NCBI GenBank assembly: GCA_021234155.1
Contig: JAJEKV010000033.1
Coordinates: 7,120,635 to 7,184,634, forward strand
From: Isoetes taiwanensis
Taxonomy: Eukaryota; Streptophyta; Lycopodiopsida; Isoetales; Isoetaceae
Length of the DNA stretch: 64,000 bases
Direction of reading: 5' to 3'
The notes under the pieces were generated by a model. The model worked only from the letters and a program-made list of their open reading frames with translations. It did no database searches and had not been told where the DNA came from. Positions 12,260 to 61,980 of this stretch are shown one piece after another; position 1 is the stretch's first letter, and each line of letters opens with the position of its first letter. The position numbers and the translations under genes are program-made.

Positions 12260-12994
12260 GAAGTTCCATATTTTCAAAGCTCTTAGCCGGTCTTCATGAG
12301 AAGCAATTGACATCATGGGCGAACAACATCTTGGTATGCGTCTTTGTAAAGACAGGCAGGCTTTCATCCATGCCATTCTACAATAGACCATATTTTCACA
12401 TTGCGCATGCTTATTGAACATAGTCGAAGTTTGAAACAAGACCTCTATACATGCTTTGTGGATTTTACTTCTGCTTTTGATACAGTACCACGCGAGCTTC
12501 TTTGGCAGCGCTTGCAGGCACTTGGGGTTCCACAAGATATTCAAAATGCAATTTATCGGCTCTATGAAAGGGTTTTTGCTAAATTTCCAGCATCAGGTAC
12601 CCAAATCACTAGCAATATTGGAGTTCGTCAGGGTTGCCCTTTATCTCCTACACTCTTTGGCTTGTACATTGATCAATTGGAAGCATGGCTTGATAATCAT
12701 GGCGGCGGAGGTCCACATTTGGCACACTATATCATTAGGCAACTTATGTATGCTGATGATGTTTCACTTCTGGCACATACCGCTGCTAGTATGCAGCAAC
12801 GTTTACATGCTCTGCACAGTTTTTGTGAGAACACAGGTCTACGTGTTAATCTCCAAAAGACCAAGCTTTTGGTAGTTCAATCTTCTCGTCACAATGTTCC
12901 CACTATGCACTATGATAGCCACGAAGTTGAAGTTATAGATAGCTACAAGTATCTTGGTGTAGAATTCTGTAAGAACACACCTTGGGAATAGTGT
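12260..12994 (+). pseudogene. LINE reverse transcriptase domain
   Basis: The main frame, 12,401-12,991, has the standard RT blocks in order: CFVDFTSAFDTVPRELLW (first catalytic Asp), GVRQGCPLSPTLFGLYIDQL, QLMYADDVSLLAHT (the YADD box), LRVNLQKTKLLV and DSYKYLGVEF. The upstream fingers, including the NYR-like block near 12,240, are in other frames. It breaks exactly at the Helentron-like insertion near 12,995. Catalytic residues are intact but the protein cannot be made as one chain. Confidence 0.85.
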
Positions 12995-33398: not shown

Positions 33399-34119
33399 TG
33401 ATATGGTGGTGCTCGGGGGAGCAGTTCAGGCTAACGCATCCAAAATTTAATATTAGGGATTAATTTGTCAAGGATAGTTTAGGTCCTCAATTATGGTCTT
33501 AAGTTATGATTTGAGATTATATGGGTAGATTAATATTCAAAGTTATGGGTCAATGGTATAAGTTAAAATTGGGTTAATGTTTTAAAGTTTAGACCAATGG
33601 TTCCAAAATTAAAAAAAGAGAGATAAAATTGGCGCGGCTGATAACAGGCCACGAGCCTTTATATAGAAACAACGGAGATCATACCAGACCTTCCGGAATT
33701 GGAAAAAAGGCCAGAACCGGCCCTGCCATAAGGCGAATCCCCTGATATTTTTAGCTGAAACTCTGATTATACTGATTCTTGACCTTTGTGGAGATATTTT
33801 GGAATGGAAAAAGGTCTTCCAGGAAAAGGTCGAGTTGTGTCTAAATAAGCATCTGTTCCTCTTGTTTCTACCGGAGAACTCTCGATTGAGTCTTAGCAAA
33901 GTCTTATATCTTGCCTGTAGTTAGTGTTGTTGAACTTAAGTTTTGGGTTGAATCTGTTCTTAAATTATGTTCTTGGTTGCGATTGGGAATGCAAGATAAC
34001 GGCTTCTTGCAGAGCCTGGACCCGGTTGGGTGGAGAGCTTTGGGCTTAAGGCCTGGTTTTAGAGTAGTTAAGGATTCTTGTTTGATTTTTGTTTATTGGC
34101 TAACTCATGAACTGTATCA
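33399..34119 (+). repeat. 3' LTR
   Basis: A 721-base LTR, TGATATGG to GTATCA, uninterrupted. It shows the pre-insertion state of the 5' LTR at the CACTA site. Confidence 0.95.
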
Positions 34120-34124
34120 TCCGT

Positions 34125-35480
34125 ATTGAAACCGTGCCAAATATCATATGTAGGGGCTGGCCGTGCCTGATCAACTCAACATAACGTGTCCGGATCTGTC
34201 ATATGCTGAGCAGCTCTAAAGGATGTGGTCTCAATGGCTCCTGCTTGGCAACATTGATAAAGCATGTCCTAGCATGGTTCTCCAGTCCAGTGAACTGTCT
34301 TAATTCGGAGATGGTGTGCCCTTGTGCGGATCGAGGCAATGAGTCTGCGCTTTTTCATCGGCAGATGGGTCCGCAGGTAACGTTGCGAGCCCCTTTCCAA
34401 TATGGGGTTGATGTGGTGCTTGTAATATGATGGCTTGACCAGTTCAAGGGTGTCGACATCCCAGAGCTTGCTGGAGAAGAAGGCGTCAAGATATTGCTTC
34501 AAGCTATGGCGATCCGCATATGTTTGCACATGTATGCACCTGTGCTCCTGAACATTCCATCTGGCTAACCACTGAGCTCTCTTGTCTTTCAAGCAGGTCT
34601 TCAAGCATTGCGGTCCCATTGGCACTGTGTAGGCCAGGTGGGGGAGGCAAGAATCATCCATACTGACCACTTTTTGAAAGTAGACGATGTGGCAGTCAAG
34701 GACTGCCTTCTAAAGAGGCAAGAAGCATGTCTCCTGCAGCGGGATTTGATATGGGACCGTGGACTTCACCTCTACGCCCGTGTCAAGAAGGCTTTTTGCA
34801 CTTGCTCCAATTCATTCCAGGTGGCGAGGGACACCATTGTGCCCCATCTTCAACCCCATACAAAAGAACAGGCTCCACTAAGACCCTGAACATGTGTGAC
34901 TGATGAGTCCAGTCATATAGCTTCACTCTATGATTGTTGTTCTGCATTGCATATAGTGCCTTCCAACCCGTTGTCACCCGCAGCGAAATGGATGGCAGAA
35001 GGAAACTCCACTCCTAGGTACTTGTAACTTGGTGCCACCTCTACATTTTGTCCACGGTAACTGATGGAAGGGATCCTTGGCTGATGTGATGACGATATGA
35101 CGACCACAATATTAGTCTTGGCCAGGTTGACACACATGTCTAACGCATGGCAGAATGTTTCCAAGGCATCATGGTGGCATTGCATGTCCATCAAGGTGTG
35201 ATCAGGGTTCGTCGCGTGAAGATGTGGTCAATGGTTGAGTGCCAGGGGCCTGAATCGTGCCTGTGTTAGGGTCCGCACTTCTGTCGCCTTGATCAAGCCG
35301 GTCAGCTACTGCTCGAGAATTTGGGCTAGTAGTTTGGTGAACACCGAACTGACCATGATTGTCTGGTAATTGGCCAAGTAATGCAGGCCATCTGCCTTGT
35401 AGATGGGCACAACTCTGCTAGCGGTCCACTGTGGGGAGAATCCTTCTTATAATGCCCTGTTGAACAAGGCAGTTAGGACT
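34125..35480 (-). pseudogene. LINE reverse transcriptase and C-terminal fragment (copy B)
   Basis: On the minus strand, from 35,420 down, there are the NYR-type block, LETFCHALDMCVNLAKTNI and SYKYLGVEFPSAIHFAAGDN near 35,040. FRVLVEPVLLYG lies near 34,870. The 34,670-34,269 frame has LPHLAYTVPMGP, AQWLARWNVQEHRC and RLIASIRTRAHHLRIKTVHW. The catalytic YxDD segment is missing, as in copy A. The LTR retrotransposon cut off its 3' UTR (23,454-23,620). It is dead, with frameshifts. Confidence 0.75.
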
Positions 35481-36900: not shown

Positions 36901-39387
36901 ATGGCTTGTCACCTCTGCATCCTCCAAAATGCAACAGCACCCATGCTCAAATCTGCTCCTCAGATTTTCCTCTTGCTCATTCTTCTTATCTTAGCTTCCA
37001 TCAGCCCTTCTTCTGCCTCTTCTATTACACGGAATTATCAGTTCAAGGTTTGTACCTATATCACAATTCACACCCATTTCTTCACTTTGTTTCTTATCCA
37101 TACAATTTTTTATTTTCTAGATTGCGTACAAGACTGTAAATCGGCTCTGCTTCTCCAAAACAATCCTTGCAGTGAATGATCAATATCCTGGGCCAACTAT
37201 TTATGCTAATGAAGGAGATAGAGTGGTCATAAATGTCACAAATCTCACTCCTCACAACATTAGCATTCACTGGTATAACTTATTCAGATTTTTCTTAAAG
37301 ATTCTATTGTTCTGCATAGATCAAAGTTTGACGCTGACTATATAATATGCTATGCTTTATGATGGAACCCAAGTTTGATTGACATAAGTATAACCAAGTT
37401 GTTTTTCTATGTGTGTGTGATACAGGCATGGAATAAGACAATTTTTCTCAGCCTGGCATGATGGTCCAGCATACGTAACGCAGTGTCCCATTCAAGAAGG
37501 AAGATCTTTCTCATATAACTTTACAATTACGAAGCAAAGTGGAACTTTGTTCTGGCACGCTCACAATGCATGGCTGAGGGGCACAGTGTATGGAGCCATT
37601 GTCATATATCCAGAAAACAGCCTATCTGGATATCCCTTTAGACAGTATAATCAAGAGAACACATTAATACTAGGTATTTTACTTAATTCCATAGCTGGAC
37701 CAACCAAACGTACTTGTGTACAAGTCTCATCTTGACTCTCGCGTTTGCATTTATTTTCATTTATTTATTTCTGCTGACTTAGTTTAAAGCTTAGCATCAG
37801 CATGCTTTTACTAAGTTGATTTGATTTATCAGGTGAATGGTGGAACAAAGATGTATTAAATGTGGAAAGTGATGCTGTGATGTCAGGCGCAATTGCGCAG
37901 ATAGCAGATGCTTATACTATTAATGGTTTACCAGGACCACTGTATGACAACTGTTCTTCAGGTATCTACTAACAATGTAATAATGGTACTGCTCATATAT
38001 TTTTTTTACCCCTGATACTCATCCTTGAATTGTTTTATCTCTTTGCAGATACGTATGAATTGGATGTGATTCAAAACCGCACCTACCTGATCAGACTGAT
38101 AAACGGAGCTCTAAATACAGAACTGTTCTTCAAGATTGCAGGCCACAACATGACAGTGGTAGAGATTGATGGAGATTATACAAAGGAGTTTGTGACAGAT
38201 ACAATTTTTATAACTCCAGGACAGACAACAACGTTTCTGTTAGAAACAAACCAAGCAAATGGAAAATATTACATGGGGGCAAGTCCATATTCAACAACTA
38301 CAGCACCCTACCAACAGACAGCCACACTTGGAATTCTAGCATATTCAGGATCAAGCAATTACATCCCTTTGAAGCCCTCATTTCCATCTCCGAAAGACAA
38401 CAAGCTTGCTACTTCATTTTCTACGTCCCTAAGATCTCTGGCAGATTCAGGCCATCCTGAACCTGTGCCTCAGACAGTAGACACAGATCTACTTATAACT
38501 GTAGGCCTTGGTTCAAAGCCTTGTGATGAGAGCTTTCCATGCACTGGACCAAACGGAGAAAAATTTGTTGCAGACATGAACAATGTTTCTTTTGTCCTGC
38601 CCTTCACTTCACTTCTGCAGGCTTATTACAACAACATGTCTGGAGTTTATACCCAAGATTTTCCCTCTAAGCCTGCAGTTAGTTTTGACTACACTGGAGA
38701 GACTTTTACTTTCAACACAAGAGCACAAAGAGGGACTAAGATTAACACAATTCCCTTTAATTCCAATGTTCAGATCGTGTTCCAGGGGACCAGCTTGGTA
38801 ACAGGAGAGAACCATCCCATTCATGTGCATGGTTATAGTTTTTACATTGTAGGGCAAGGATATGGCAACTTCAATGCTAAAAATGCCAGCTTTAATCTGG
38901 TGGATCCACCTAGGAGGAATACAGTTGCAGTTCCAGTTAATGGATGGGCAGCCATCAGATTCAAAGCAGATAATCCAGGTTAGTATGGGGAAGACATGAC
39001 AAAATTAATATGGGGATGTTTTTTTTTCCTGATTTTTTTTCAACTTTTTAGAAACTAAAAGACATGATGTTAGAAAGACACAATTGCTGCTGCATATCAT
39101 ATGATCATAACATAATATGCTGCATATCATGTCAGCTCATGTCATATCATATCTTCATCATAATATGATGAGAGATATGATGCAAGCATATATGGTGATT
39201 GTATTAAAACAGTATCTCTGATGAAAATAATAAATTGATGAATGGATATTTTGCAGGACTGTGGTTTGTGCACTGCCATCTGGAGCTGCATACAACATGG
39301 GGGCTTGCAACAGCTCTTTTAGTGTTAAATGGGCAATACCCAAATCAGGGCCTTCCTGCTCCTCCGCCTGATTATCCGCGCTGCTGA
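36901..39387 (+). CDS. LAC: Laccase (multicopper oxidase), six exons
   Basis: Exons are 36,901-37,047, 37,121-37,272, 37,426-37,673, 37,833-37,961, 38,049-38,978 and 39,257-39,387. All introns are GT-AG and in phase, giving 578 residues, normal for plant laccases. The N-terminus has a hydrophobic signal peptide ([20 protein letters not shown]); Met-15 could also be the start. Copper ligands are present: HWHG (split by intron 2), [25 protein letters not shown] and [15 protein letters not shown], with Leu in the axial type-1 position. It ends PPPDYPRC like other plant laccases. The secreted glycoprotein (many N-x-S/T) oxidises phenolics with O2, for example monolignols in cell walls. It is the only apparently intact host gene here, isolated among transposons. 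Confidence 0.95.
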
Positions 39388-43179: not shown

Positions 43180-44068
43180 TAATAGTAAGAAGATGAACAA
43201 ACCCTGAAATCTGGAGGGAGGAGATTAAAAGCAGAGAAAGGGATTAAGAAGCAATAGGAAGGCGAAGGCGAAGGCGAAGGCGGAATAATTGAAACTGTGG
43301 AAAGAAGGATAAGGAAAAAAGGGACGGAACAGAGTCCATAGATTTCTTTGGTTTCTGTTACAAATTTGACAGACCTTCCGCTTCCAGAGCTGCACATGTG
43401 TGTGGGGCCATTTCACATGCCTCCCGGACTGAAAACCCATAGCCTAAGCTGCTCCATTTGTCATCTTTCAACCTGCATTTTGGTCTACGCAAAAAGCCAT
43501 AGCCTAGGCTGTTAAAGCTCCAAAAACAAAAACCGTACCTATTTTCTGCCGGATTTAGAATTTCTTTGCTGGATTTAAGCTTTCGGCCCATAGAAGACTT
43601 TGTTTGCTCCCCGTCAGGCATGCTTATTTTATTCTCAGAACAGAGGCTTTGTGGAACTCCTCTAAATCCTCCTATGATGAAACATATTCGTCTCCTACTC
43701 CAAAATGCTCTTACCTTTGCTATCATATAAGGGAGCAAGACCATTAGCACCCTAAAACAAGAAACCCGACTTGCCAAGGCCGGATATGTATCATCTTCAA
43801 ACCACTTCTCGGGTGAAATTGCTTTTGCGGATACGGACAGGGGCATCGTATTTGTGATTTAATTTTGTGGATGCCAGAATAAAAGCAATTGCATTATCGC
43901 GATGGCCGCCACTAAACCTGGGTCGCAAACCTTTCGCCGCAACAACAAAGCCCAGAAGTAAAATAAACCATGCCAAGGCTCGGAAGCAAAGCACCGACCT
44001 CCAGGAATCCAAAGTCCATGCTCTTTGTCGGGTTGCATTATTTGGCAGAGAGTTGAAAACCTAACCAA
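43180..44068 (-). other. Cluster of unassigned open frames
   Basis: Overlapping minus-strand frames at 44,068-43,859 (69 aa), 44,012-43,797 (71 aa) and 43,846-43,358 (162 aa). The 71-residue frame starts with a signal-anchor-like stretch (ALAWFILLLGFVVAAKGLR). The 162-residue frame has a repeated NSLGYGFLRRPKCRLK / SSLGYGFSVREA unit and no known domain. They could be exons of an unknown gene or chance frames. A (GGCGAA)n hexamer run lies at about 43,259-43,285. Confidence 0.25.
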
Positions 44069-44069
44069 A

Positions 44070-46235
44070 TAACAGATTTAGGGACTCCGATGGAAAGCGA
44101 GGAAAAGGGTGGCAGGTAAAAGCATGGATCAAAAATTAGAAGCAAGGTGAAGATAGGGCATGGCCATGGAGAAGAGCATGTGCCTGAGAAAAGAGGGTGT
44201 CTTCAAAAGTCATTTACACAGAGCTTCTTTCATTTACTGCCAGAATAAAGCACCAGGCTTGCATGTTCAGCCCCTAAAATAAAAAGAGGGCTTTTGTTGT
44301 GAGCCCTTGGATGTTGGACCATTGAAAAAAAAAAGCTAAATCAACGACTAAGAAATGGTGCACTCTAGATGTACGCATTAGTACATCTATTCGAATACGC
44401 CATGAAATCTTAGGAAAACCTTTGTGAAAAGCGTACAAAAACACAAAGAAAACCCCCTGTTATTATGCTACATATTGATGTGTTGTGAATATTAATTTTG
44501 GTGCCATTAATGTTTGAATAAGATGTATCATAGAAGTGGTGCCATTAATTGCCCTTCATTAATTGCAAAAGTTTCATGGGCTAGGATTTCTCCTTACATC
44601 TTCTATCCAAAGGTAGCTAGTGGGCTACAAACTACCTCATTTGTGAATGCACCACCGCTTGTAGTGGCATGCATTGATTGATACCATTCATGAAACCAAA
44701 TGCACTTTTCTAAACTAATTTTCGTAGGATAAGGAGACAGAAGGATACTAAAAAAATTTGTGGATGTTGTTGAATTGCTCTCTAAATATATAGCAAATCG
44801 GTCTACTCTAGTTTCTCCATAGCCGTGTTAAGAGGCCTTCCAAATCGTGCTCTTCTTAAACACCCACAGGATGCCAGATGAGGTCCACATACAATGGCAA
44901 AGCCTAGCCGCCTTTGCACCTAAACCCTTGTTAGAAGGATTTTGGTTTGCATCTATTACTCTATCAAGACAACTTAAAAGCTCCTCCAGGTAACGGTATC
45001 TATAGAGGCACCTCAACCAGCAATTTTTTATTACGATTTGCTTATTTTGTGGAAGATTAATATGAATCAAGGAGTTATGTTTTCATGGACGGTGGTGATC
45101 ACATTGAGCAACTAGCCGCTGGTTGTTTCAAGATCTTTTAAAATTTCTTTCAGTTGTGTGAGGGAAATCAATGGCGAAATAAACTCCTTGAGCAACAATA
45201 GATAATTTATGCATTGCACTGTATGTGTCACTCTCTCTAGCAAATTACCTGCTTCATGATTCATTATACAAATAAAGAGTACATTCTATTCCTAAGTGCA
45301 TTGTTTTCTATGAGCCGTTGTTTGTTTCGTGAAAGATAACTACTAGGCCCATTATAAGGAAGATAATAGTTTGTCTATGCTCTAAAATATTCATGAATTC
45401 TTACAATTAGGAACCAGTAAAGATAGATGGATGGATGGATGGATGGATGGATGGTATTTTTACATCATTATACATACTAGTGTTGGTTTTTCTATTAGGT
45501 TATAAGCATGCCTTTTATGATGGTGCACCAGGTCGTAGCAGTTTCTGTAATGCTTAGCATAAGGTCTTTAGGTAGATGTAACTTAACATAGCATGCCATC
45601 AATGTATATAAACTTTGATGCTTAGCTAGAGTTTGATTTGTTTTGTTCAAAACTAGATATTTATCTCAAATTCTTTTTGACTTGCAATGCTACATAATTA
45701 GAAAAACTTTGTTGCAAAATATTTGTTATGAGTGAACATGCCATTATTGTGGCCTCTATGATGTCAATCCATCTAGTCTGGTTTTGATTTTGGCTTAAAA
45801 GATAACTTTTCTTAGTGTATATTGTTTATGAACTAGTTATGTATTTTTTTCCTCTTCAACACATGAATGATTCTTTTATCTATATCTATCTATCTTTATT
45901 TTACACGTGTCTTCATTTAGATAGATAGACAGATAGATAGGAATTTTACATCCACAGAGCAAGCATCAAACAATAATATTCTAAGGCATCATCTTAAAAG
46001 AATTATATATGTTATTATAAGATTGAAGACATAAAAAACGTCGTTTTGGGCTTTGAAGATCTTTAAGAATGGAATCGAATGGTTTTATCATCTATGGAGA
46101 CCAATCGGCCTATGGGATCCAATGGAGGAGCGCAACAAACTTATTACTATCCAGATTAAAAACACCTCGCACTGAAGGGTTTTCGAGAAAAATTATGGCA
46201 ATAATAAGAATGCTATCAAACTGTACAAATATACA
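44070..46235. other. Intergenic DNA with microsatellites
   Basis: No gene was recognised. There is a (GATG)n run at 45,425-45,455 and GATA-type runs near 45,881-45,897 (CTAT strand) and 45,918-45,940 (GATA strand) that could fold back on each other. Confidence 0.6.
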
Positions 46236-46239
46236 TCAT

Positions 46240-47415
46240 GAAATATATATACATGTCAGATGAGTGTTTGAGGACATAGTTGACCCCGAATATCCATGAC
46301 CGCCTGAAGGTGTATGACCCCGGCATCCATACTGAAGTCGTGCTCAATATCACATGTAGTGGTTGGCTGGGACTGACCAACTCAGCATAGCATGTCTGCA
46401 TTTGATCATACACTGGAGATCTCTGAAGGATATGGCATTCATCCTCAATGACTCCTATTTGGCAGCGGTGACAAACCTTGTTCTGGCTCCCCAATCCATC
46501 TACCTGTCTCAATTCGGAGACGATGCACATCTGTGCGAAGAGAGGCAATAAATCTACATTTTTTCATAAGCAAATGGATACGCAAATAGCGTTGTGGGTT
46601 CCTTCCAATGTGGGGTTTATGTGGCACTGGTAATATGCTGTCTTGGCCCGTTCAAGGGCACTGGCATGCCAAAGCTTCGTGAGGAAGCAAACGTCATGAT
46701 AGTGCTTCAAGCTAGGGGGTCTACCTCTCTTTGTACGTGTACGCACTTGTGCTTCTACACATTCCACCTAGCCAGCCATGTAGCTCTCTTGTTCCTCCAC
46801 CAGGCCTTGAGGTGCTACGGCCGCCCATTGCCATAGTATAAGCCAGGTTAGAGAGATGAGTATCATCTATATTGACTACCTTCTGAAAGTAGACAATGTG
46901 GCGATCAAGGGCCATCCTCTGAAGAGGCAAGAAACATGTCTTTTGCAATATAATTTGATATGGAACCATGGACTTCACCCCCAATGCTTGTGTTAAAAGA
47001 AGCTTTTTGCCCTTGCTCTAAGTCATTCTAGGTAGCGACGGACACAACTGGGCCCCATACTTCAACCCCATATAAAAGAACGGGGACGAATGGGCCCTAT
47101 CATACACCTTCGCTCTGTCCGGGGGGTACACGTATACATAAGGGGGGGTATGGCATCGGCGTTCAGAGCGTAGAAAAAACCCCCCTTGTATATGCAATTT
47201 TAAAAGGCAATTTGACCCCTGTGTATAGATATTGCTCCAAATTAGTGCCTAAAAACACCCCTAACTCCTAAGTATATGTACGCAAATGGTCCAAAACACA
47301 CCCCTCCGTTGAACTCTTATGGGTTATACGCTGATTAAAGGTGAATCCCTCGGGCGCTCTACATTGCATATAGTGCCTTCCAGTCCACTGTCGCTCGTAG
47401 CTGGATGGAAGTGTC
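46240..47415 (-). pseudogene. LINE C-terminal and 3' UTR fragment (copy C)
   Basis: The minus-strand order is a YAMLNN-like remnant near 47,360, GVKSMVPYQIILQKTCFLPL at 46,980, LSNLAYTMAMG near 46,850, SLRTDVHRLRIETGRW near 46,500 and a knuckle region with CHRCQIGVIEDECHILQ near 46,440, then 3' UTR to about 46,240. About 200 extra bases at 47,075-47,355, absent from the related LINE at 34,870-34,960, look like a small unclassified insertion starting after AAAAGAACGGGG. The 5' side is cut by the Copia-type LTR at about 47,418. Confidence 0.7.
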
Positions 47416-47417
47416 CA

Positions 47418-47601
47418 GTGTGTTAATGAGTCAGCATCTAGCTTACCTGGATGTATGACGTGTTATTAGAGTCATGTCCTAATAGAGCGTCGCATCCAAT
47501 GGATGCAATATATACCTTTTGTAACTGTTCTTATTACATCAATCCAACTACCTATTCTCCGCAGTTCTGTCTGTTCTTATCTTGTTGTTATATAATTAAG
47601 A
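47418..47601 (+). repeat. Copia-type LTR end (short LTR)
   Basis: Sequence between the LINE break and the primer site, starting near TGTGTTAATGAGTCAGC and ending TATATAATTAAGA. It includes a short inverted pair (GTGTTATTAGAGTCATG / CCTAATAG) and a pyrimidine-rich stretch. No second LTR is in the window, so the exact borders are uncertain. Confidence 0.5.
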
Positions 47602-47613
47602 TGGTATCAGAGC
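47602..47613 (+). other. Primer-binding site (initiator Met-tRNA)
   Basis: TGGTATCAGAGC just downstream of the LTR end and about 90 bases before the CACTA insertion. Confidence 0.9.
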
Positions 47614-47727
47614 TTGGCAGTGATGGGCAATAAGGAAAAGAAAGGGCAGATCTGGAAGGAGAAGATTAGGGTTAAACTTGCAATTAGGATAATAAACGAC
47701 CGTCACTAGTAGAGATAACCCTTGTTT

Positions 47728-48015
47728 GTCACGGTTTTTGTCACGCAAAATACACTATTTTATTATATTATTAGTATCGTGACAAATAACCTTTCTCACT
47801 CGTGACAAACATGAAACCACTTGTCACGCGTAATATTTAAATAATTTTGTCACGCGTGACAAATATAGGTTTGTCACACGTGACAACTATAGGTTTGTCA
47901 CGCGTGACATATAAATATATTTGTCACGCGTGACAAATATTGGTTTGTCACGCGTGACAAACCCTTTACTTTTGTCACGGCTGCCAATTTTAACTTTGTC
48001 ACGCATGACAAACTG
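47728..48015. repeat. Left subterminal palindromic repeats of CACTA element
   Basis: The 18-base palindrome TTTGTCACGCGTGACAAA, full or nearly so, lies at 47,846-47,863, 47,894-47,909, 47,920-47,937 and 47,944-47,961, with variants around. The mirrored array is at 57,580-57,930 (for example 57,603-57,620 and 57,653-57,670). Confidence 0.93.
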
Positions 48016-48019
48016 ATAT

Positions 48020-48640
48020 TTAATAATATTTATTTCTAATTGTTTTTTTCTACGTAATGTCTTTTATAATTTATATTAATATTATTATATATAAGTTTTG
48101 CCACCTATGGCAAATTGTTTTTGGGGGAGAAAAAAAAAGTTGGGGCAATTGATTTGGATTGTCCCTAATTAGGTGCAAATTGGCACATAAACATAAAATG
48201 AAATCGATACATTTATAAATAATATAAGGTACATACGCAGTATACAAAATACAAGTACGCAAAGTCTATCGGTAGGCACAACTACCACTGTCTCCGTCTC
48301 TGTCATCATGGCATCGAGACATGTCGTCCCGTCGAGCTTACCACCAAAGCAGGTACATCTGGTGAGCTCTCTAATATCCTAGAGCCTATAGGATATTTAA
48401 ATATTCTGACCTACAAGTCAAACATATTAGTTTATTATTTTAAATTATTATGGAAGTGTGAAAAATATTTACCTACACTTTTTCAAAGTCTATAGGTGAT
48501 GTACCCCTACCACGTCCTCCACGTCCACGCCCATGCCCTGCAACATATAGCAAAATATGTAAATAGCATATTTATAGAATAGAATAGGTTGAATTTATAC
48601 CTATAATGTGGATCTGGAGCTGTAGGTGCAAGTAGAAGTG
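48020..48640. other. Left interior of CACTA element, unassigned
   Basis: AT-rich sequence with no convincing frame. Confidence 0.35.
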
Positions 48641-48659
48641 CAAGTGGTGGAGAAAAGGT

Positions 48660-49140
48660 AATATATACAAATGATTACATTTGTTAGTGTCATGAAAGCA
48701 TGTTGGAGCCTGGCTTTACAATGGCTTTAAAATATGAAGAAAAGGGAATATGTACAAATGAAATTACATTTGTTAGTGTCATGAGAGCATGTTGGCAGCC
48801 TGGCTCTACAATAGTTTGAAAATATGGAGAAACCGGAATATGTACAAATGTAATTACATTTGTTATTGTCATGAAAGCATGTTGGCAGCCTGATCAAGAT
48901 ATTTTTTCATGAAATGTGATGATGGCATAACGTGCAGAGCATGAAAAGGGGCTTCTATTGTTATTGCTGGATTGCTTTAAGCAGATGCAAAAAGAACGCA
49001 TAGATGTAAATGAAGTCGCATTCTTGAGTGCACTCAGGGCCTTGTGCTAACATAAAAGACATTATTATGGGTCAGTTTCTCCATACAATGGTTGCCAAGA
49101 TTGGACTCGAATCGGATCTAATTGTGGGATGCACTCGCTT
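48660..49140 (+). pseudogene. PPR gene fragments, partly triplicated
   Basis: A unit of about 90 bases is repeated three times (48,665, 48,752 and 48,841 onward) and reads like a PPR helix pair (GICTNEITFVSVMRACW). It is followed by 48,940-49,110 with CFKQMQKERIDVNEVAFLSA and, after a frameshift, a GQFLHTMVAKIGLESDLIVG-like stretch, which fits a plant PPR repeat. No start or end of a gene is present. Captured fragment. Confidence 0.6.
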
Positions 49141-49441
49141 CAAATGTGGAATCCCTCTGGGAGTACAATTAGTCACAACAGGTCTGTAATTACAATGGCG
49201 CAACCTGCACCCGCTCTCCCCGAAGGAATCATGTCCCTTACAATGTGTGATACATAACGGTATTTAAATTGAAATGACTAAGAATGGCCGATGGTGTCAG
49301 AAGCCATATTATTTTGTGTTCAGCATCCTCTTGCACAATCTTGCGCTGGATTTAACTCGTATTCAAATGAACTGGGCCATGGATTATTAAGAGAGAAGTC
49401 TCAGGTTATGCAAAGAAACGGGACATGTGAGCCGCATATTT

Positions 49442-49690
49442 TCAAGCAGCCATAGCAATCAGAAACGCAGGCCATATTCTGTCAGATAAATATTTAACTG
49501 CCAATATCAAAGATCCAGATGATAAGGAGGAAAAGCAAATTACGAAAAAGAAGGTTCGGGCTATGTACAAACTTTTACTTTCATCAAGTGTCAGGCTAAG
49601 ATTCATCGCCAATAGCATGGGCTTAGAACTGGATAAAGCGAACTTGAGAAAAAAAATAAACCAGCCACATTTCTGACATAAGACAAAGAA
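49442..49690 (+). pseudogene. Unassigned coding fragment upstream of B3 domain
   Basis: A plus-strand frame around 49,442-49,675 reads AIAIRNAGHILSDKYLTANI, EEKQITKKKVRAMYKLLLSS and LDKANLRKKINQPHF before stops. It could be another exon of the B3 gene or of a different captured gene. Confidence 0.3.
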
Positions 49691-49794
49691 CAGGAGGTAT
49701 CTCAAAGCCAGCTTAAGGATTTCTAAAACTGGCCCAGCATAATATGACTCGGAATGAGATAAAGACACTAAGCCACATGCTACATCCTTAACAT

Positions 49795-50418
49795 GTGAAT
49801 TACCATTGCTTAGATGAATTTTCAGATCCAAAATTTCCTGAAAAGTCTAGGCACACCTATACAGAAATTTCAAAATCTCTTGAAATACTTACCAAATTGA
49901 CAAGTATGGTAGCTCAGAAGAATTCCAACTCCAGACCACCCCTGCTTCTGAAAGATCAGCTCCAATCGCCCAAATTCGTTAGAAAATCTGATTTTGAAAG
50001 CTTCACTTTCAATCTATGCAAAACTAAATATAGAAAACCATTAGTTGTATATATGCAAAGAGGTTTTCAGCCTATATTTGCACAACATGGCAGCATGGTG
50101 GACATAACAGTTTTTGGTGGCAAGAACAAATGGATTAGGTCGTTATCTACTTCTACATACAAAGGTCTCAGTATTGGATGGTGCCAATTCGCTCGTATGC
50201 ATGGTATCAAACTAGATGATATGGCACTGTTGGAATTAACAGGCCAAAATTTTATCACCTTTCATATCTATCAACACAGCACTTTTGCTGACCGATGCAT
50301 CTGTATTTATCTTTGCAGCATTCCTACGCATCTATGTTGGGGCACTCACGCGACCTACAGCAAGAGTAAGATCTGGCCTAGTAATAGTCAGGTTATAAGA
50401 GGTCCTACTAGTGCCTGA
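49795..50418 (+). pseudogene. B3 DNA-binding domain gene fragment
   Basis: A 207-codon open frame. Residues about 85-165 fit a plant B3 domain (REM-like): PLVVYMQRGFQPIFAQHG, VDITVFGGKNKWIRSL, KGLSIGWCQFARMHGIKLDD, MALLELTGQNFITFHIY. The order of strand, helix, GW-x-F, ...-GD and the final F-x-x-HI strand is characteristic. B3 proteins are nuclear transcription factors found only in plants and relatives. No promoter or complete gene structure is evident, and it lies inside the CACTA element, so it is most likely a captured fragment. Confidence 0.75.
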
Positions 50419-50419
50419 T

Positions 50420-51525
50420 GGGCAGTCTCAGCAGTTGGCAAGAAGTGAACAAGTCTTAATAATTCTTGTGTCTCTGTACACATGGCTCTAGGTCTGCCTC
50501 TGTTGCACGTACTCAGACTGGACTCGAATTGTTGATTCTTTATGCTATTTATCTAGCATGACTGTGTTGATTTTCCAAAGGCCAGACTGAAGGACTTCCA
50601 TTATGTGAAAAGCTTATTATGTCAGGCATAACCCAATGACCATGATATCATCAGACAAAGCTTATCAAGGTCCATGCCTCTATAGCTGTACAAGTATAGA
50701 ATATGGAGGAACTATTGGGATGTCTGAAAATTTTGCTGCAAATGCAAATTGTCTGGAAAAGGAGTAGTGGTTCCTTTACAGAATAGAACAGCCTGACCAT
50801 ATGCCTTCGTCTGTGGACTGGGATGAGCAATTCCAAACCTTAAGAAAGAACAAAGTCAAAGAGGATAAAGTGTTTCTTCTTAGGACAAGTAGGCAATGAC
50901 ATTGAACAAAACTTACCAGAAACATTAGTTACAGAATTATTTGAATCAGTAGTGAAATCAAAATGAAGCAAGTAACTACTTTCTTCTTATTGAATTGAAT
51001 TTTCTTTTTATATGCAATAAGGACAGAATGTGTCACAATGCTGGAACTGTAAGGCACCACATAGATTAGGTTAATGCACCAGAATTGGGATTTTGCAATG
51101 TATACTCAACAAATCAGAAAAATTATCAAGGCTTTAAAACTGGTTCTTCATCATTTGAGCAATGATCTTTTGAAACCACCAAGACATTCTTGACCAGTTT
51201 GCACTTACAAGAGGAAGAGGGCAGCTATACCAGCACAGACACTCATTGCTTTATGTTCCAAATTCCATGTTGGGTCAGTTGCTTTGATTGACAGAATAGA
51301 AGGAAGCCTATTCAATTAGTTGGATTTTTGTGCATATGACAGCATTCGTGTTTGCCATTGCCATGTACTACATGTATCATCTATAGGTATGCGCCCATAA
51401 AAGAAGGATCTGGTCTCTATTTAGATAAGTTTCAATAAACAATATGAAATATTCAAACCTAATCAAACCATAGAGAATATTTGTGAAGGCATTGGAAAGG
51501 AAAGGACTTACAGTTTCGCAGGAGG
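50420..51525. other. Interior of CACTA element, unassigned
   Basis: No gene or strong repeat. It may be intron or flank of the captured B3 gene. Confidence 0.35.
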
Positions 51526-51529
51526 TTGC

Positions 51530-54500
51530 ATAAGGTAAATTCATTAAGCATTAACCACATCCGTGCGGTGGGTGTTCCTTTTTTCTTTTGAGAGACGTTT
51601 CATGGGACATGACCTACCATTTGAACGGTGGGATTAGTAGATGAAGCTGTTTTGGTGCCCCGATACTTAAACCCTACTAAATTTGTAGGGTTTAGGTTTT
51701 GGAAGCCTTCCCTGCCTCTGAAGTGGTCGAGAGCTTGCATGCATAGTCCCTAAAGTAAAGTGGATGTTTTTGACTCATGCACAAAGTTAAAAGCACATTC
51801 TGAGCTTGTTAGAGTGGTCGAACTGGAGGAACACTCCATTTCTTGGTCGTGCCCCTACGTGGGAAAGGGGAAAATTTGGGAATTGGCACATCCGTCAATT
51901 GGATTTCCAACTTTTATTTTCGGAGATATTTCTTGGGACATGAACTCTTATTTGAACGATAGGATTAGCAAATGACGCGATTTTGATGCCTTGATACGTA
52001 AACCCTACTAAATTTGTAGGGTTTAGGTCTTGAGAGCCTTCCCTACCTCGAAAGTAGTGGAGAGCTTCGTGCACAGTTTCCTCAAGGGTCCAAAAAGCGG
52101 CCCCAAGAGTGAGAACAAAGAACCCCTTCCTAGGCACCGATTCCAAACTTGCGCCCTTGCGATGGCTCGTAACAAGCTAGACATTGTGCAACCGGGCATG
52201 CTAGAAGGCAGGACATGACAGTTTGGCTCCGTCCTTGCATCCGGACGGTCAGAGTCACCCTTGAACACATGTTTGAGTAGTAGACAATCGATTAAACGCC
52301 TGGCTTGCCTAGTACATCCCCTGCTTAGATTAGCGCACTAGACAAGGAGTGCATTGAATGAGAGGTCCACTAGTTGCTTATATTGAGTAGAGATTAGCTC
52401 TATTGGCCATGGAAGTTGGTCCCTAGAGTAACTTCGATGCTTTGAACTCATATACAAAGTCAAAATTAGATTTCGAGGTCGATAGAGTGGCTCAATTACG
52501 AAACCACACCATTTTCTCGTCGTATCCCTACGTCGAGAAGGGGGAAATTTGGGGTTGGCACATCCGTGCGGTAGGTGTTCATTTTTTCTTTTGAGGGATG
52601 TTTCATGGGACATGAGCTAACATTTGAACGGTGGGATGAAGCTGTTTTGGTGCCCCGATACTTAAACCCTACTAAATCTGTAGGGTTTAGGTTTTGGCAG
52701 TCTTCCCTGCCTCTGAAGGGGTCGAGGGCTTCATGCATAGTCCTTAAAGTAGATTCAATGTTTTTGACTCATGCACAAAGTTTGCTAGAGTAGTCGAACT
52801 GGAGGAACACCCCATTTCTTGGTCGTGCCCCTACGTGGGAAAGGGGGAAATTTGGGGTTGGCACATCCGTGCTGTAGGTGTTCATTTTTTCTTTTGAGAG
52901 ACGTTTCATGGGACATGACCTACCATTTGAACGGTGGGATTAGCAGATGAAGCTGTTTTGGTGCCCCGATACTTAAACCCTACTAAATTTGTAGGGTTTA
53001 GGTTTTGGAAGCCTTCCCTGCCTCTAAAGTGGTCGAGAGCTTGCAAGCATAATCCCTAAAGTAAATTGGATGTTTTTGACTCATGCACAAAGTTAAGAGT
53101 ACATTATGAGCTTGCTAGAGTGGTCGAACTGGAGGAACACTCCATTTGTTGGTCGTGCCCCTATGTGGGAAAGGGGAAAATTTGGGAATTGGCACATCCA
53201 TGCATTGGATTTCCAACTTTTATTTTCGAAGATGTTTCTTGGGACATGAACTCTTATTTGAACGATAGGATTAGCAAATGACGCGATTTTGATACCTTGA
53301 TACGTAAACCCTACTAAATTTGTAGGGTTTAGGTCTTGAGAGTCTTCCCTACCTCGAAAGTAGTGGAGAGTTTACGTGCACAGTTTCCTCAAGGGTTCGA
53401 AAAGCGGCCCCAAGAGTGAGAACAAAGAATCCCTTCCTAGGCGCTCGATCTTTTGAACTCATGTGTAAAGTCAAAATTAGATTCCGAGCTCGATAGAGTG
53501 GCTGAATTGGGAGACCACGCCATTTTCTCGTCGTGCCCCTACGTCGAGAAAGGAAAAATTTGGGGGTTGGCACATCCGTGCAGTAGGTGTTCATTTTTTC
53601 TTTTGAAAGATGTTTCATGGGATATGAGCTAACATTTGAACGGTGGGATTAGCAGATGAAGTTGTTTTGGTGCCCTGATACTTAAACCCTACTAAATCTA
53701 TAGGGTTTAGGTTTTGGCAGCCTTCCCTGCCTCTGAAGTGGTCAAGAGCTTGCATGCATAGTCCCTAAAGTAGATTCGATGTTTTTTATCTCATACACAA
53801 AGTCAAAACCACATTATGAGCTTGCTAGAGTGGTCGAACTGGAGGAACACCCCATTTCTTGGTCGTGCCCCTACGTGGAAAAGGGGGAAATTTGAGGGTT
53901 GGCACATCCGTGCAGTAAATGTTCCTTTTTTCTTTTGAGAGACGTTTCAAGGGACATGACCTACCATTTGAATGGCGGGATTAGCAGATGGAGTTGTTTT
54001 GGTGCCCCAATACTTAAACCCTACTAACTTTTTAGGGTTTAGGTTTTGGAAGCCTTCCCTGCCTCTGAAGTGGTCGAGAGCTTGCATGCATAGTCCCTAA
54101 AGTAAAGTGGATGTTTTTGACTCATGCACAAAGTTAAAAGCACATTCTGAGCTTTCTAGAGTGGTCGAACTAGAGGAACACTCCATTTCTTGGTCGTGCC
54201 CCTACGTGGGAAAAAGGGAAATTTGGGAATTGGCACATCCGTGCATTGTATTTCCAACTTTTATTTTTGGAAATATTTCTTGGGACATGAACTCTTATTT
54301 GAACGATGGGATTAGCAAACGATGCGATTTTGATGCCTTGATACGTAAACCCTACTAAATTTGTAGGGTTTTGGTCTTGAGAGCCTTCCCTACCTCGAAA
54401 GTAGTGGAGAGCTTACGTGCACAGTTTCCTCAAGGGTCCAAAAAGCGGCCGCAAGAAGGAGAACAAAGAACCCCTTCCTAGGCACCGGTTCCAAACTTGC

Positions 54501-54570
54501 GCCCTTGTGATGGCTCGTAACAAGCTAGACATTGTGCAACCGGGCATGTTAGAAGGCAGGACGTGACAAT
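51530..54570. repeat. Tandem array of about 330-bp units with telo-box palindrome
   Basis: Roughly nine units. A landmark AAACCCTACTAAAT ... GTAGGGTTT recurs near 51,669, 52,002, 52,666, 52,976, 53,307, 53,686, 54,017 and 54,347, i.e. about every 310-380 bases with one degenerate unit near 52,330. Two variants alternate: one with TTGGTCGTGCCCCTACGTGGG, the other ending in CCAAAAAGCGGCC.CAAGA. Short open frames of 60-90 codons recur because the units repeat; they are not genes. Confidence 0.92.
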
Positions 54571-54689
54571 TTGTCTCCATCCTATAGATATAAAAACAAT
54601 TTGTATTATCGATGCAATTTTCACATAAAAAATGCCCTCAAAATAAATAAAAAGAACAAGATAAGATAAGACCAGGATAAGATAAGATA

Positions 54690-55905
54690 AGATACTGTTA
54701 CATATGCTAAGACCAGGATAGTTATGCATTGTCCACATTAATATATCTTTTAGTGTAAATATTTTCTCCTTAGATATTCTCTTAGAGATATCTACCATGG
54801 GAACACCACTCCATAGAGTTTTCAAGTCGTCAATTAAGGGTGATAGATATACATCAAAATTTTTAGGTTGTGAAGGGCCTGCAATATCAAGACTTAGCAT
54901 GCTTAAAGACCCCCACTACATTTTATATAAAAAAAAGGTATTCCTAATAGGACTAAATGAATTGTACAAATCTGGAATTATCATGCTCAAGATGATATGA
55001 CCCCGTTTGATGGACTCATGTGGAGGGATGTTGTAGTTTACAACCATGACTGGCCATGTGGACCACGAGGCTGTCTGATGCAAAAAAGGATTGAAACCAT
55101 GCAAGACCAAAGTGAATATGTCTTGGTTCATTTTGAAATTCGGTCCATCTGTTATTTATAAATCTCCATGCCCCCGAATCACCAGGAATGCGCATAACTC
55201 CATCAGAACTACAGTTATTTACATGCCAACCCATCAAGGCAGCAATCCCCTTTGTCCTAGACATATGTTTAAGTCTAGAAATTATAGGAAAATACCGCAA
55301 TACCTTGCATGGAATGGTCGAGCCTTGGACACCTCGACTCGTTACATTTAAGACAATGAACTATATCTTTGGTGTCCTTATAATATAAGGTACACTCGTT
55401 TGGACATGCATAAATATTCTCATACTCAAAATCAAGCGCATTTATGAGCTTACATGCTTCAAAACGACTAGAGGGAACCTTATTTTTAGGAGGCAATATT
55501 TTGCAAATAAGTATGCATATGATTAAGCCAACAAAGATAAACAATAAAATTTTATATGTTCGAGAATTAAGAGTTAGGAAGGAAAGGAAAAACCTTAATA
55601 TTGCATCAACTGCAACATTTGATATCTTATATTGCCCTTGCAAGTTGAGGAGGCATAGGTTAAATGTCAATCTCGATATTTTGCAGCCCTCGTATAATTT
55701 TGTTTTGGCATCCTGGATTATCTGATCATCAAGGTATTCAGCTGGATCTATCTCAATGACCATCAACCTCAGATGCGTGCATATCTTGTTTGTCAATGTC
55801 ATTATCAATGCCTTGCATGAGAAACTCAAATTGAGCATGCGCGTACAACAAATCTTGAGTCATCTCATCATAAGCATGACCAGAGTTCCACATTCCCATT
55901 AACTA
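54690..55905 (-). pseudogene. CACTA transposase (TNP2-type), truncated
   Basis: On the minus strand, from 55,905: a decayed N-terminus, then LYEGCKISRLTFNLCLLNLQ, LPPKNKVPSSRFEACKLI, YENIYACPNECTLYYKD with HCLKCNESRCP (C-x4-C ... C-x2-C zinc site), YFPIISRLKHMSRTKGIAAL, MGWHVNNCSSDGVMRIPGD, then an FNPF/TWPVMVVNYNIPP block and FDVYLSPLIDDLKTLWSGV ending near 54,705. These are the N-terminal and central blocks of Transposase_21/TNP2 in order. Frameshifts separate them, and the C-terminal half is missing where the 330-bp array begins. Confidence 0.9.
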
Positions 55906-55909
55906 TCAT

Positions 55910-56340
55910 CACGGTGGAACTTTGATATACGAGGAGCATCTGGTACCTACAAAGAACTATTTATCCAATCTGTCAAGAATACCATTACTTTTAAGCCATT
56001 AACCATTTTTTTCAAGCATTATAATAATGTTTGAAATCTAACCACTAGGTATAAAGTTGCCAAGCAAGCACAACAATAAGTAGGAGCACATGAATTGAAT
56101 AAATAAAGAAAGAAAAAATGGAAGAAACATAATGCATTTTGAATAGCATTAAGTGTTGCACATAGAATCTAAGTATTACACTTGATGGTATTAAGTATGC
56201 ACAACATTAAGTATGAGTACGTGATTGAAAAAATAAAGCAAAGGGAAATGAAACAAGAACAATAATATTCATATTTAATAAGATATCATTAATATCAAGT
56301 AGCGATTTATTAAAAATAAAAGTTTGTTTTAAAAAATTAA
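55910..56340. other. AT-rich spacer between SET frame and TNP2
   Basis: Contains a short direct repeat of ATTAAGT(A/G)TGCACA-type words (56,145-56,215). No gene. Confidence 0.4.
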
Positions 56341-56346
56341 AAGTTT

Positions 56347-57421
56347 TTATCTCTCAGGTACAGTCTCATGGAATTCATAGTCCAAAAATAACTCGTCGCC
56401 CTCTTTGAGGCTCTTGATAGCAACAACCATAACAAAGTGCTTACACATTCTTGTCATGAACTCCTCGCGATCGTTACTTCTTTCTTCAAACATGCAATTG
56501 ATGATATTTTTATTGACACCACAGCTGTTGATCAACAACACTATTGCCATGTTCTTCCACATGACCATCAATGTAAGATCTCTTGTCCTCATTGTACTCT
56601 GATCTCATTTCCATAGTGCATGCATTACTGTTGCAACCGTATACCATCATAGAAAATGAATAATATGTTAATGCCTCCCATTCGGATGCACTATATGCCG
56701 GACTCCATAGATCATCAAAGGGACAACTGAATTATATCCAACACGAATATTTTGGGCAATGAATAATCCCCTTCCAGATCTAGGGAGCGTAGACTGCTTT
56801 ATTACATACCGACGACCCCAATAAATGAATATGTCACCTAAATTGGGCAATGGACCACTAAATAGACCTAATCTTAATCGATCTACAGGTTTTAATAATC
56901 TCTCAATGTGACGCGACATTGGTAAATCAAGTATGTCACACCCCACAACTTAGTAACTACTTCCACTATGTACATTTATGTGGCTTGATCCACGGGTCCT
57001 ATAGTGGGATGCACTTTGTGCAGAATCTATTTCATCATCATCTCCAACATGTCTCCAAACTCCCCTTGAAAAATTGTTTATGGCTTGTTGTGTTGGGTTC
57101 TGTTTAACCATAGAATGATCTAACTATGTATTTAACTAAAATAGAGCTATTTACCCCGACATGCTAGATAATAAAATAAACCTATAACAAATCAAATTAT
57201 TTACTAACCTGTCCATCTAGTGGTGCTGGATTGTAGGGCATGCCAAAACGCCTACAAAAGCTTTCAGGAGCGCCCCAATAAGTACCATTTGACTGCAAAT
57301 GCCGCTCAATCACCGTAGCCAACCGGTTATGCTGCCCCACACATGACTGACACCAAAAAGGTTCAAACTCACCAACATGGTGTCCTCGACTCAGCTGCGC
57401 TGGTTGGGAGCAAATCTGCAT
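56347..57421 (-). pseudogene. SET-domain gene carried by CACTA element
   Basis: Reading the minus strand: first exon 57,421-57,210 with FEPFWCQSCVGQHNRLATVI and a good donor CAG/GTTAGT. A second stretch from about 57,090 to 56,668 has an acidic GVWRHVGDDDEIDSAQS and, after one stop, GRRYVIKQSTLPRSGRGLFI (the start of a SET domain, S-x-L-x-x-x-GRGLF). A third, 56,592-56,347, has VLLINSCGVNKNIINCMFEE and AIKSLKEGDELFLDYEF, matching the SET (N-H-S-C)...N-C and KGEEL-x-x-DY blocks. SET proteins methylate lysines using S-adenosylmethionine. Stops and frameshifts make this copy inactive. It lies upstream of TNP2 in the same direction. Confidence 0.7.
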
Positions 57422-57579
57422 CTATCAACTCTTTTATCCTCCTCCTCCTCCTAGTACTAGGAAGCAGATTGTTAAAAAGGTTGGGATCCATACCAAGCGC
57501 CCGACAGAGCGCCTATGAGAAGAGAAGCATAAGAAGGGAGTTGAAATGAACAGATTTAAAATTGAAATAAACAGCTATA

Positions 57580-57930
57580 TTATTTGTCACGAGTGACAAA
57601 AATTTGTCACGCGTGACAAAAGCTATTAAAGTTTTGTCATGCATGATAAATATTTGTCACGCGTGACAAAAGCTATGAAGGTTTTGTCACGCATGATAAA
57701 TATTTGTCACGCGTGATAAGAGTTTGACATGCATGACAAAAGTTATTGTGGTTTGTCACGCATGACAATTATTTGTCACGCGTGTCAAATTTTAGTCGTT
57801 TGTCACGGTTTTTGAGTTTGAATTTTTGTCACGAGTTACAAAAAAAGATTTTCCTTTGTCACGAGTGGCAAAATTAAAATACGTGACAAACTTTATTGGC
57901 GTGACAAATTTGCCCGTGACAAAAGACCCT
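57580..57930. repeat. Right subterminal palindromic repeats of CACTA element
   Basis: Dense copies of TTTGTCACGCGTGACAAA and variants (GCATGATAAA, GAGTGACAAA), mirroring the left array. Confidence 0.93.
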
Positions 57931-58122
57931 TGTGCCTTGTAGTGCGTCTTCGGCAGCATAGGTTGAATCGATTGAGAGAAGGCAACGCGTGCTTTGAGTT
58001 TCTGCAAAATTTTAAGCAATCCAGCATCTCTCACAATAAGGACAGTTTCCAGAGAAAGCGAAGTGTCTTTCAACGTTTGAGTTTTAGGAGATAAAAAGAA
58101 ATCGAAAAATTCATTCAGAATC

Positions 58123-59111
58123 ATGGCAGGACAGACACAGGGCTTGGAAAGATTCTTGGAGACGTTTTTAGAGAAATTCACTGGAGATAATTATCATACA
58201 TGGTCCATGAAGCTACAATTAATGGACCAGAGGGATAGGAAGGCCATAACCACAATTGGCCTTGCCCTTGGAGAAGAGTGCGTTCATCTAATTGATTTGA
58301 AGCTGACATCAAAAGAGAACTGGGATACATTGGTAAAGGCTTTTGGTAGCTCCGGAAAGGCATGTGAGTTATCTCTGAAACAACAGTTCTTTGATCTGCA
58401 CATGAATTCAGGGGAGTCAATAGCAGAATATTTGAGTAGGATTCGCAGCTTGCTAGTACAACTTGCAAGAGTGAAGGCAGTGGTATCCAAAGAAGATCAA
58501 ATGGCAGTTCTATTAAAGGGAGTGGTAGCAGATTTCCGTCCGGTTGTGACAGCCTTAACAAATATTCCTGGACAATCAATGGACACCTTAGTTGCGGAAC
58601 TTCTAGAAGAAGAGAGAAAACTTAAACATGAGGGCAGTGGAAAGAACTCCGCCTTCTTTATGAGGAACAAACAGAAGTGGCTAGCCAACAAGCCTATGCA
58701 ATCTGGGAGAGCAAGCAGTGCTCCCAGAAGCCAATCATTTGGAAACTCTAATGCAGGCCCCAGTGGAATGAGACAGTATGGGAATCTCAACAGTGGCTCT
58801 AGCGGTGTGAGCAGGATGCTTAGAGGAAAGAAAGGACCATGTTACCAGTGTGGCAAGCCAGGGCACTTGGCTAAAGATTGCAGGTTGAATATGATTGACA
58901 GAAATAGAGCAAAATCCAAAGATGTTAAGAGACCAGAGAACAAGACTGGAGAAAGGCTTTTCATGGTAAGCACTTCATTGAATTTAAACAAAGCAATTTA
59001 TTTAGATTCAGGTGCATCTATTCATATGACGCCTTTCCGAAATGTCTTCTTAACCCTTGAGCCTTCTAATGAAAACCAAGTGTATGTGGGAGACAACACT
59101 GCAAGGGAACT
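58123..59111 (+). CDS. Copia-type gag-protease reading frame
   Basis: A 330-codon frame. The N-terminal UBN2-type Gag has FTGDNYHTWSMKLQLMDQRD and LKQQFFDLHMNSGESIAEYL; near residue 245 is the CCHC knuckle CYQCGKPGHLAKDC; near residue 294 the aspartic protease motif YLDSGASIHMTPFRN. It ends at a stop after VGDNTARELL-type sequence, one frameshift before the next conserved block at 59,113. The start ATG follows the leader interrupted by the CACTA element, so wild-type expression from the LTR is now blocked or very long. Confidence 0.9.
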
Positions 59112-59412
59112 ATAATAGTACAGCTTGAGGATAATGATCGCAAGATTCATGATGTGTATTTTGTTCCCGGGTTAGCACATACTCTCTTGTCAGTTGGAAA
59201 AATAGCAAATCTTGGCATGCAACTAATATTTGCACATAGCAAGTGCCATGTACTGAATGAACAGGGACAGCGAGTAGCAAGTGGAACTCGAAGGGATGGG
59301 CTTTATCATCTTGATGCCCAACTAAAGGCACCTCCACAAGCATTGTCTATGACGCAACCCAAATCTAATTTACAGCTATGGCATACAAGATTAGGCCATC
59401 CACATGTACAAA
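59112..59412 (+). pseudogene. Copia-type protease end and GAG-pre-integrase
   Basis: It continues in a shifted frame: HDVYFVPGLAHTLLSVGKIA, GTRRDGLYHLDAQLK and LWHTRLGHP, the pre-integrase zinc motif. Similarity ends at about 59,412, within the first His of the integrase region. Confidence 0.85.
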
Positions 59413-59497
59413 TATATGTACTGGCTATTTCAGGAGATAGATATCAGCAAATAAGAAGCTTGTCCTGAGGGCTTACAGTTTCTTCTATTTTAAGTTG

Positions 59498-60655: not shown

Positions 60656-61980
<1,325 letters not shown>

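Follow-up and report, generated by a model that had tools for sequence, protein, structure and literature searches.

A decayed CACTA transposon of Isoetes taiwanensis that probably carries a captured SET-domain gene

Introduction

CACTA transposons are recognized by a small set of hallmarks, namely a 3-bp target-site duplication along with repeats in terminal and subterminal position, and in Chenopodium such elements have been described whose 5' region holds fragments of captured genes and whose 3' region holds satellite arrays (PMC8978399). Enzymes that act on chromatin or DNA marks are known from other transposons. SET histone methyltransferase genes are reported to have been incorporated in HarbingerS and MuDR elements of Phytophthora (Repbase Reports 2014, cited in PMC12730594), and many transposons of fungi, EnSpm among them, to carry TET/JBP genes (PMC12730594). 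Here we describe a decayed CACTA/EnSpm transposon of Isoetes taiwanensis, located in a 64,000-nucleotide stretch of contig JAJEKV010000033.1 (assembly GCA_021234155.1, positions 7,120,635 to 7,184,634, forward strand), hereafter the window. Near its 5' end the element carries the remains of a SET-domain (histone-lysine-methyltransferase-like) gene, which is probably captured cargo.

The Chenopodium elements are similar to the one described here in their CACTA ends, subterminal repeats, 3-bp duplication, TNP2 transposase, gene pieces on the 5' side and tandem arrays on the 3' side. They differ in their cargo, as no SET gene is among it; the word SET is absent from the available text of the article, where the extra domains are Peptidase_C48, Transposase_24 and a few others (PMC8978399). 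Tgm-Express of soybean is likewise a CACTA element which mobilises host gene fragments, but its cargo is another one, and the likeness is one of description and not of sequence (PMC1947982). The HarbingerS and MuDR elements are DNA transposons with a SET methyltransferase gene beside the transposase; however, in the summary given by PMC12730594 they belong to other superfamilies and to an oomycete, whereas the present case is a CACTA element known from one broken copy. The fungal TET/JBP transposons share the presence of a chromatin or DNA-mark enzyme on a transposon, which in one lineage is EnSpm. They differ in the class of the enzyme and in its recurrence across many families, in contrast to the single SET case here (PMC12730594).

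No report of a CACTA element with a SET gene was present among the literature matches listed, a search whose scope excluded most subscription papers and Repbase Reports and which is not proof of absence. A CACTA element with a captured gene is of a known kind; a SET cargo was not found reported for CACTA in the sources covered.

Structure of the element

Both ends of the element begin with CACTA, at 47704 (+) and at 57944 (-), and CGT lies directly outside each end as a 3-bp target-site duplication. The sequence TTTGTCACGG is common to both ends further inward, although the terminal inverted repeat as a whole is imperfect (21 of the first 31 bases are identical between the two ends). Dense subterminal repeats follow. 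Allowing up to 2 mismatches, TTGTCACGCGTGACAA was found 16 times in the 64-kb window, always in one of the two end regions of the element, against 0.02 matches expected in the entire window; in 100 shuffles, 16 matches were never reached (0/100). With CACTA-type terminal inverted repeats, a 3-bp duplication, dense subterminal repeats and remains of a TNP2 transposase (PF02992), the element falls within CACTA/EnSpm. An earlier reading made from the sequence only had placed a CACTA element at 47704..57944, and the CACTA ends, the CGT duplication and the subterminal repeats bear these limits out. A second copy was not found in the rest of the window, either by blastn (E up to 1e-3) or by the TTGTCACGCGTGACAA pattern.

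The coding direction of the element, with the SET-like and TNP2 remains, is the minus strand. Whole-frame scans matched PF02992 in two frames, with 87.5 bits (E 9.4e-25) for the better one and 18.5 bits for the other, reaching profile position 137. When scanned piecewise, profile positions 1-35 were matched within 55315-55100 (24.5 bits), positions 38-79 within 55098-54970 (44.8 bits), and positions 80-135 within 54879-54703 (48.7 bits), all on the minus strand. The frame changes between 55100 and 55098, and probably once more between 55332 and 55315. Further upstream, the pieces 55332-55496 and 55596-55760 have a TNP2-like appearance by eye only; neither matched Pfam. For profile positions 138-213, no match at E up to 1 turned up in any of the three minus-strand frames of 48100-54600. 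The transposase of this copy is truncated and frame-broken, and the copy yields no complete transposase, which bears on its autonomy and not on its membership of CACTA/EnSpm.

The SET-like gene

The SET-like gene (57491-56347, minus strand) precedes TNP2 in the coding direction, and its start lies about 90 bases inward of the innermost 5' subterminal repeat; the same order and strand had been proposed in the sequence-only reading, which proved correct on this point. An ATG at 57491 opens a piece that runs to 57381 and, after a frame change, a second piece follows at 57373-57209. This first exon had no Pfam match when scanned by itself. A GT-AG intron at 57208-57100 is plausible, within an exon-intron model that is based on the sequence alone. 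The gene is interrupted by one stop codon and by frame changes at three points.

When the SET pieces were joined, with X marking the breaks, they matched PF00856 with 25.3 bits (E 2.2e-5 in a search of 24,736 models), and the match extends over profile positions 1-104 of 105. The cut-off of this family is 22.4 bits. A join of shorter pieces gave 24.7 bits, so that the resemblance to SET claimed in the sequence-only reading stands up to the profile with the pieces joined, and only then. The motifs GRGLF and GDELFLDYEF fit SET. At the position of NHSC, the usual SET motif, this copy has INSC; that is, the histidine is absent. It is possible that the histidine was lost during decay, because the frame break 56537/56535 lies only about 5 bases from INSC.

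The dependence of the match on the choice of frames was examined with nine joins of correct and wrong-frame pieces scanned against Pfam, a control which is not a formal frameshift-aware null. The all-correct join of shorter pieces is the one that gave 24.7 bits. With the correct second and third pieces and a wrong first piece the score was 22.7 bits, and with the correct third piece and a wrong second piece it was 15.0 bits (first piece correct) or 15.1 bits (first piece wrong). None of the remaining five joins had a SET match at E up to 1; four of these lacked the correct last piece and one was a hand-typed reversal. The middle piece, 56686-56537, contributes about 8 to 10 bits, as its inclusion takes a join from 15.0 to 24.7 bits when the first piece is correct and from 15.1 to 22.7 bits when it is in a wrong frame. 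This stretch had previously been read as an apparent intron inside the SET domain. An intron at that place is rejected in view of the rise in score, as 56686-56537 is itself SET-coding in a third frame.

It is the middle and last pieces together that make the case for SET, and the match is real but moderate. The SET-like protein had no match among PDB sequences at E up to 1 (a wider search returned one unrelated match at 0.75), nor did it match any of the NCBIfam models.

Probable captured cargo and its alternatives

The element, with SET-like and TNP2 remains lying in one direction and breaks in both, is in our view best explained as a decayed CACTA/EnSpm transposon that captured a SET-domain gene as cargo, an explanation we consider probable though far from certain. 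An ancestor of this copy would have acquired the SET-type cargo from a host gene, on its 5' side, perhaps via interrupted gap repair, a route which has been discussed for CACTA capture. The cargo gene and the transposase gene probably shared one direction of transcription. The copy would then have inserted in a copia retrotransposon, within its leader, and decayed afterwards; alternatively, it may already have been defective and have been mobilised by transposase made elsewhere. We take the SET gene to be cargo limited to a lineage rather than an established routine component of the CACTA family. In its present state the copy is most likely inert and almost surely yields no working SET enzyme. 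Chromatin modification by this copy is in doubt, because breaks interrupt SET and TNP2 alike and the NHSC histidine is missing.

Several observations weigh against capture as an explanation. No parent host gene was found for the cargo, which leaves its capture an inference. A SET gene with a plausible intron of its own, starting about 90 bases inward of the innermost 5' subterminal repeat, is also what would be expected of an old resident gene. Decay does not separate the two: counted by hand, breaks number 4 in 342 codons of SET and 2 in 284 codons of TNP2 (Fisher p 0.69), a small count which depends on the choice of pieces and omits possible introns and the truncation of TNP2. There is no clear excess of decay in SET over TNP2, and the count cannot distinguish a resident gene from recent cargo. 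The SET match has weaknesses of its own. The upstream SET frame alone had no PF00856 match, the last piece (an 85-aa frame) alone reached 14.8 bits (E 0.038), below the cut-off, and no single frame attains it. One wrong-frame decoy matched an unrelated family with 14.9 bits (E 0.015), and the last piece alone is therefore no better than chance. The first piece, which holds GRGLF, contributes only about 2 bits (from 22.7 to 24.7). The B3 and PPR resemblances found elsewhere in the element (Table 1) are likewise below their cut-offs, at the level of the wrong-frame decoy.

Among the alternatives, the one that survives best, although we regard it as unlikely, is that SET belonged to the CACTA family as a regular accessory gene whose expression from the element would set or remove silencing marks at its copies, a role that has been proposed for chromatin enzymes borne by other transposons. 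Slightly more doubtful is its fuller form, a CACTA lineage with a SET-type methyltransferase as a regular accessory gene, first after the 5' subterminal repeats, which alters chromatin at the lineage's own copies and would be the CACTA counterpart of the SET genes of HarbingerS/MuDR and the TET/JBP genes of fungi. The SET gene is indeed first after the 5' subterminal repeats and has the direction of TNP2, its domain is almost whole, its intron is plausible, and it is not clearly more decayed than TNP2. Precedents are the SET genes reported in HarbingerS and MuDR of Phytophthora and the TET/JBP genes reported in transposons of fungi, EnSpm among them (PMC12730594). However, the window holds a single broken copy with no second one beside it, and in this copy the NHSC histidine is missing. 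Relatives were also lacking in viral contigs (8 pattern matches, none a relative; an exact pair of subterminal repeats was absent as well) and in prokaryote genomes (15 pattern matches with the last 85-aa frame as the only query, none a relative), both of which are poor places to seek a plant element and where none would be expected.

It is very improbable that the resemblance to SET is a product of chance, with short frames selected by eye and combined until a score appeared. Such an origin would suit the failure of every single frame to reach the PF00856 cut-off, a decoy score equal to that of the last piece (14.8 to 15.1 bits), the small share of the first piece and the lack of PDB or NCBIfam matches. 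Against this, the joined pieces cover nearly the whole profile in the correct order at a low E, the middle piece has a substantial share of the score, and the SET match disappeared in five of five control joins without the correct last piece, counting the reversal among them.

The least probable account is that a SET pseudogene or gene-bearing element was inserted later, within this one copy: other foreign-looking DNA does lie inside the element, but the SET part is not bordered by long repeats, direct or inverted (the inverted pairs in 54600-57580 are limited to one of 26 nt at 77% and one of 14 nt at 86%), a test limited by the fact that repeat-free capture would leave no flanking-repeat trace.

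Other parts of the element and its insertion site

Capture of a SET gene may not be the only acquisition of this element. The array of 332-bp units which follows the truncated TNP2, together with the weak B3 and PPR resemblances on the strand opposite to SET and TNP2, hints at further foreign DNA; for the two resemblances this would be captured gene debris. By blastn, a stretch of about 680 bp is present twice with 94% identity (51556-52235 and 53903-54583). A separate tandem array, of a 90-bp unit in 2.8 copies, is located at 48648-48892 (+), inside the element and near the weak PPR match.

To the right of the element, 58081-59115 (+) encodes a copia-type gag (PF14223) and 59073-59468 a GAG-pre-integrase domain (PF13976). 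To the left, TGGTATCAGAGC at 47602 resembles the site at which copia elements are primed by initiator-methionine tRNA. With gag and pol on one side and a primer-site-like motif on the other, the CACTA element therefore most likely sits in the 5' leader of a retrotransposon of the Ty1-copia type.

The surroundings contain other sequences. In the left flank (44001-47703), the stretch 46324-47084 matches 34118-34872 with 73% identity over 768 bp (blastn), and the two are perhaps copies of a non-long-terminal-repeat retrotransposon. A reverse transcriptase stretch at 12350-12991 (+; PF00078, E 1.6e-28) probably belongs to an element of that class. Coding sequence for a multicopper oxidase (laccase-like) is found at 37973-38983 (+; PF00394, E 3.7e-32; PF07731, E 1.1e-28) and is possibly a host gene. 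An open frame of 509 aa at 5900-7429 (+) did not match Pfam at E up to 0.01; by eye it has a transposase-like, perhaps hAT-like, appearance. A long AG dinucleotide tract, with 65 copies of the 2-bp unit, occupies 61085-61214.

Table 1. Coordinates of the CACTA element, its components and the adjoining copia sequences (positions in the window)
Feature	Position	Strand	Basis
CACTA/EnSpm element, 10,241 bp	47704..57944	coding direction minus	CACTA ends, flanking CGT, subterminal repeats at both ends only
Target-site duplication CGT, left copy	47701..47703		sequence
Left terminal repeat (element 3' end)	47704..47734	+	21/31 bases match right end
Subterminal repeats, 7 matches to TTGTCACGCGTGACAA	47793..48011		pattern count
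Weak PPR resemblance	48901..49047	+	14.0 bits (cut-off 30), E 0.055; residues 268-316 of the frame from 48100
Weak B3 DNA-binding domain resemblance	50167..50274	+	14.9 bits (cut-off 30.1), E 0.025
Tandem repeats, unit about 332 bp	51436..54425		repeat scan; follow truncated TNP2
TNP2 remains, PF02992 positions 1-137 of 213, two frames	54700..55204	-	profile matches; C-terminal part not found
Putative TNP2-like upstream part	55332..55760	-	by eye in translation only; pieces without Pfam match
Proposed second exon of SET-like gene, broken	56347..57099	-	stop TAA at 56952-56950; frame changes 56689/56686 and 56537/56535
SET domain, PF00856 positions 1-104 of 105, three frame pieces	56377..56775	-	joined-piece profile match
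Proposed GT-AG intron, 109 bp, exons joined in frame	57100..57208	-	sequence only
Proposed first exon of SET-like gene	57209..57491	-	translation; without Pfam match
Subterminal repeats, 9 matches to TTGTCACGCGTGACAA	57584..57871		pattern count
Right terminal repeat (element 5' end)	57914..57944	-	sequence comparison of both ends
Target-site duplication CGT, right copy	57945..57947		sequence
TGGTATCAGAGC, primer-binding-site-like motif of host copia element	47602..47613	+	sequence resemblance
Copia-type gag and pol start, host retrotransposon	58081..59468	+	PF14223, E 5.8e-23; PF13976, E 7.4e-7

Significance

One broken copy is a pointer toward intact sister copies and not evidence of function. 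Transposons with chromatin-modifying enzymes of their own bear on how mobile DNA copes with silencing by the host. If it were true that sister copies kept SET under selection, they would provide a CACTA case in which such coping could be tested directly.

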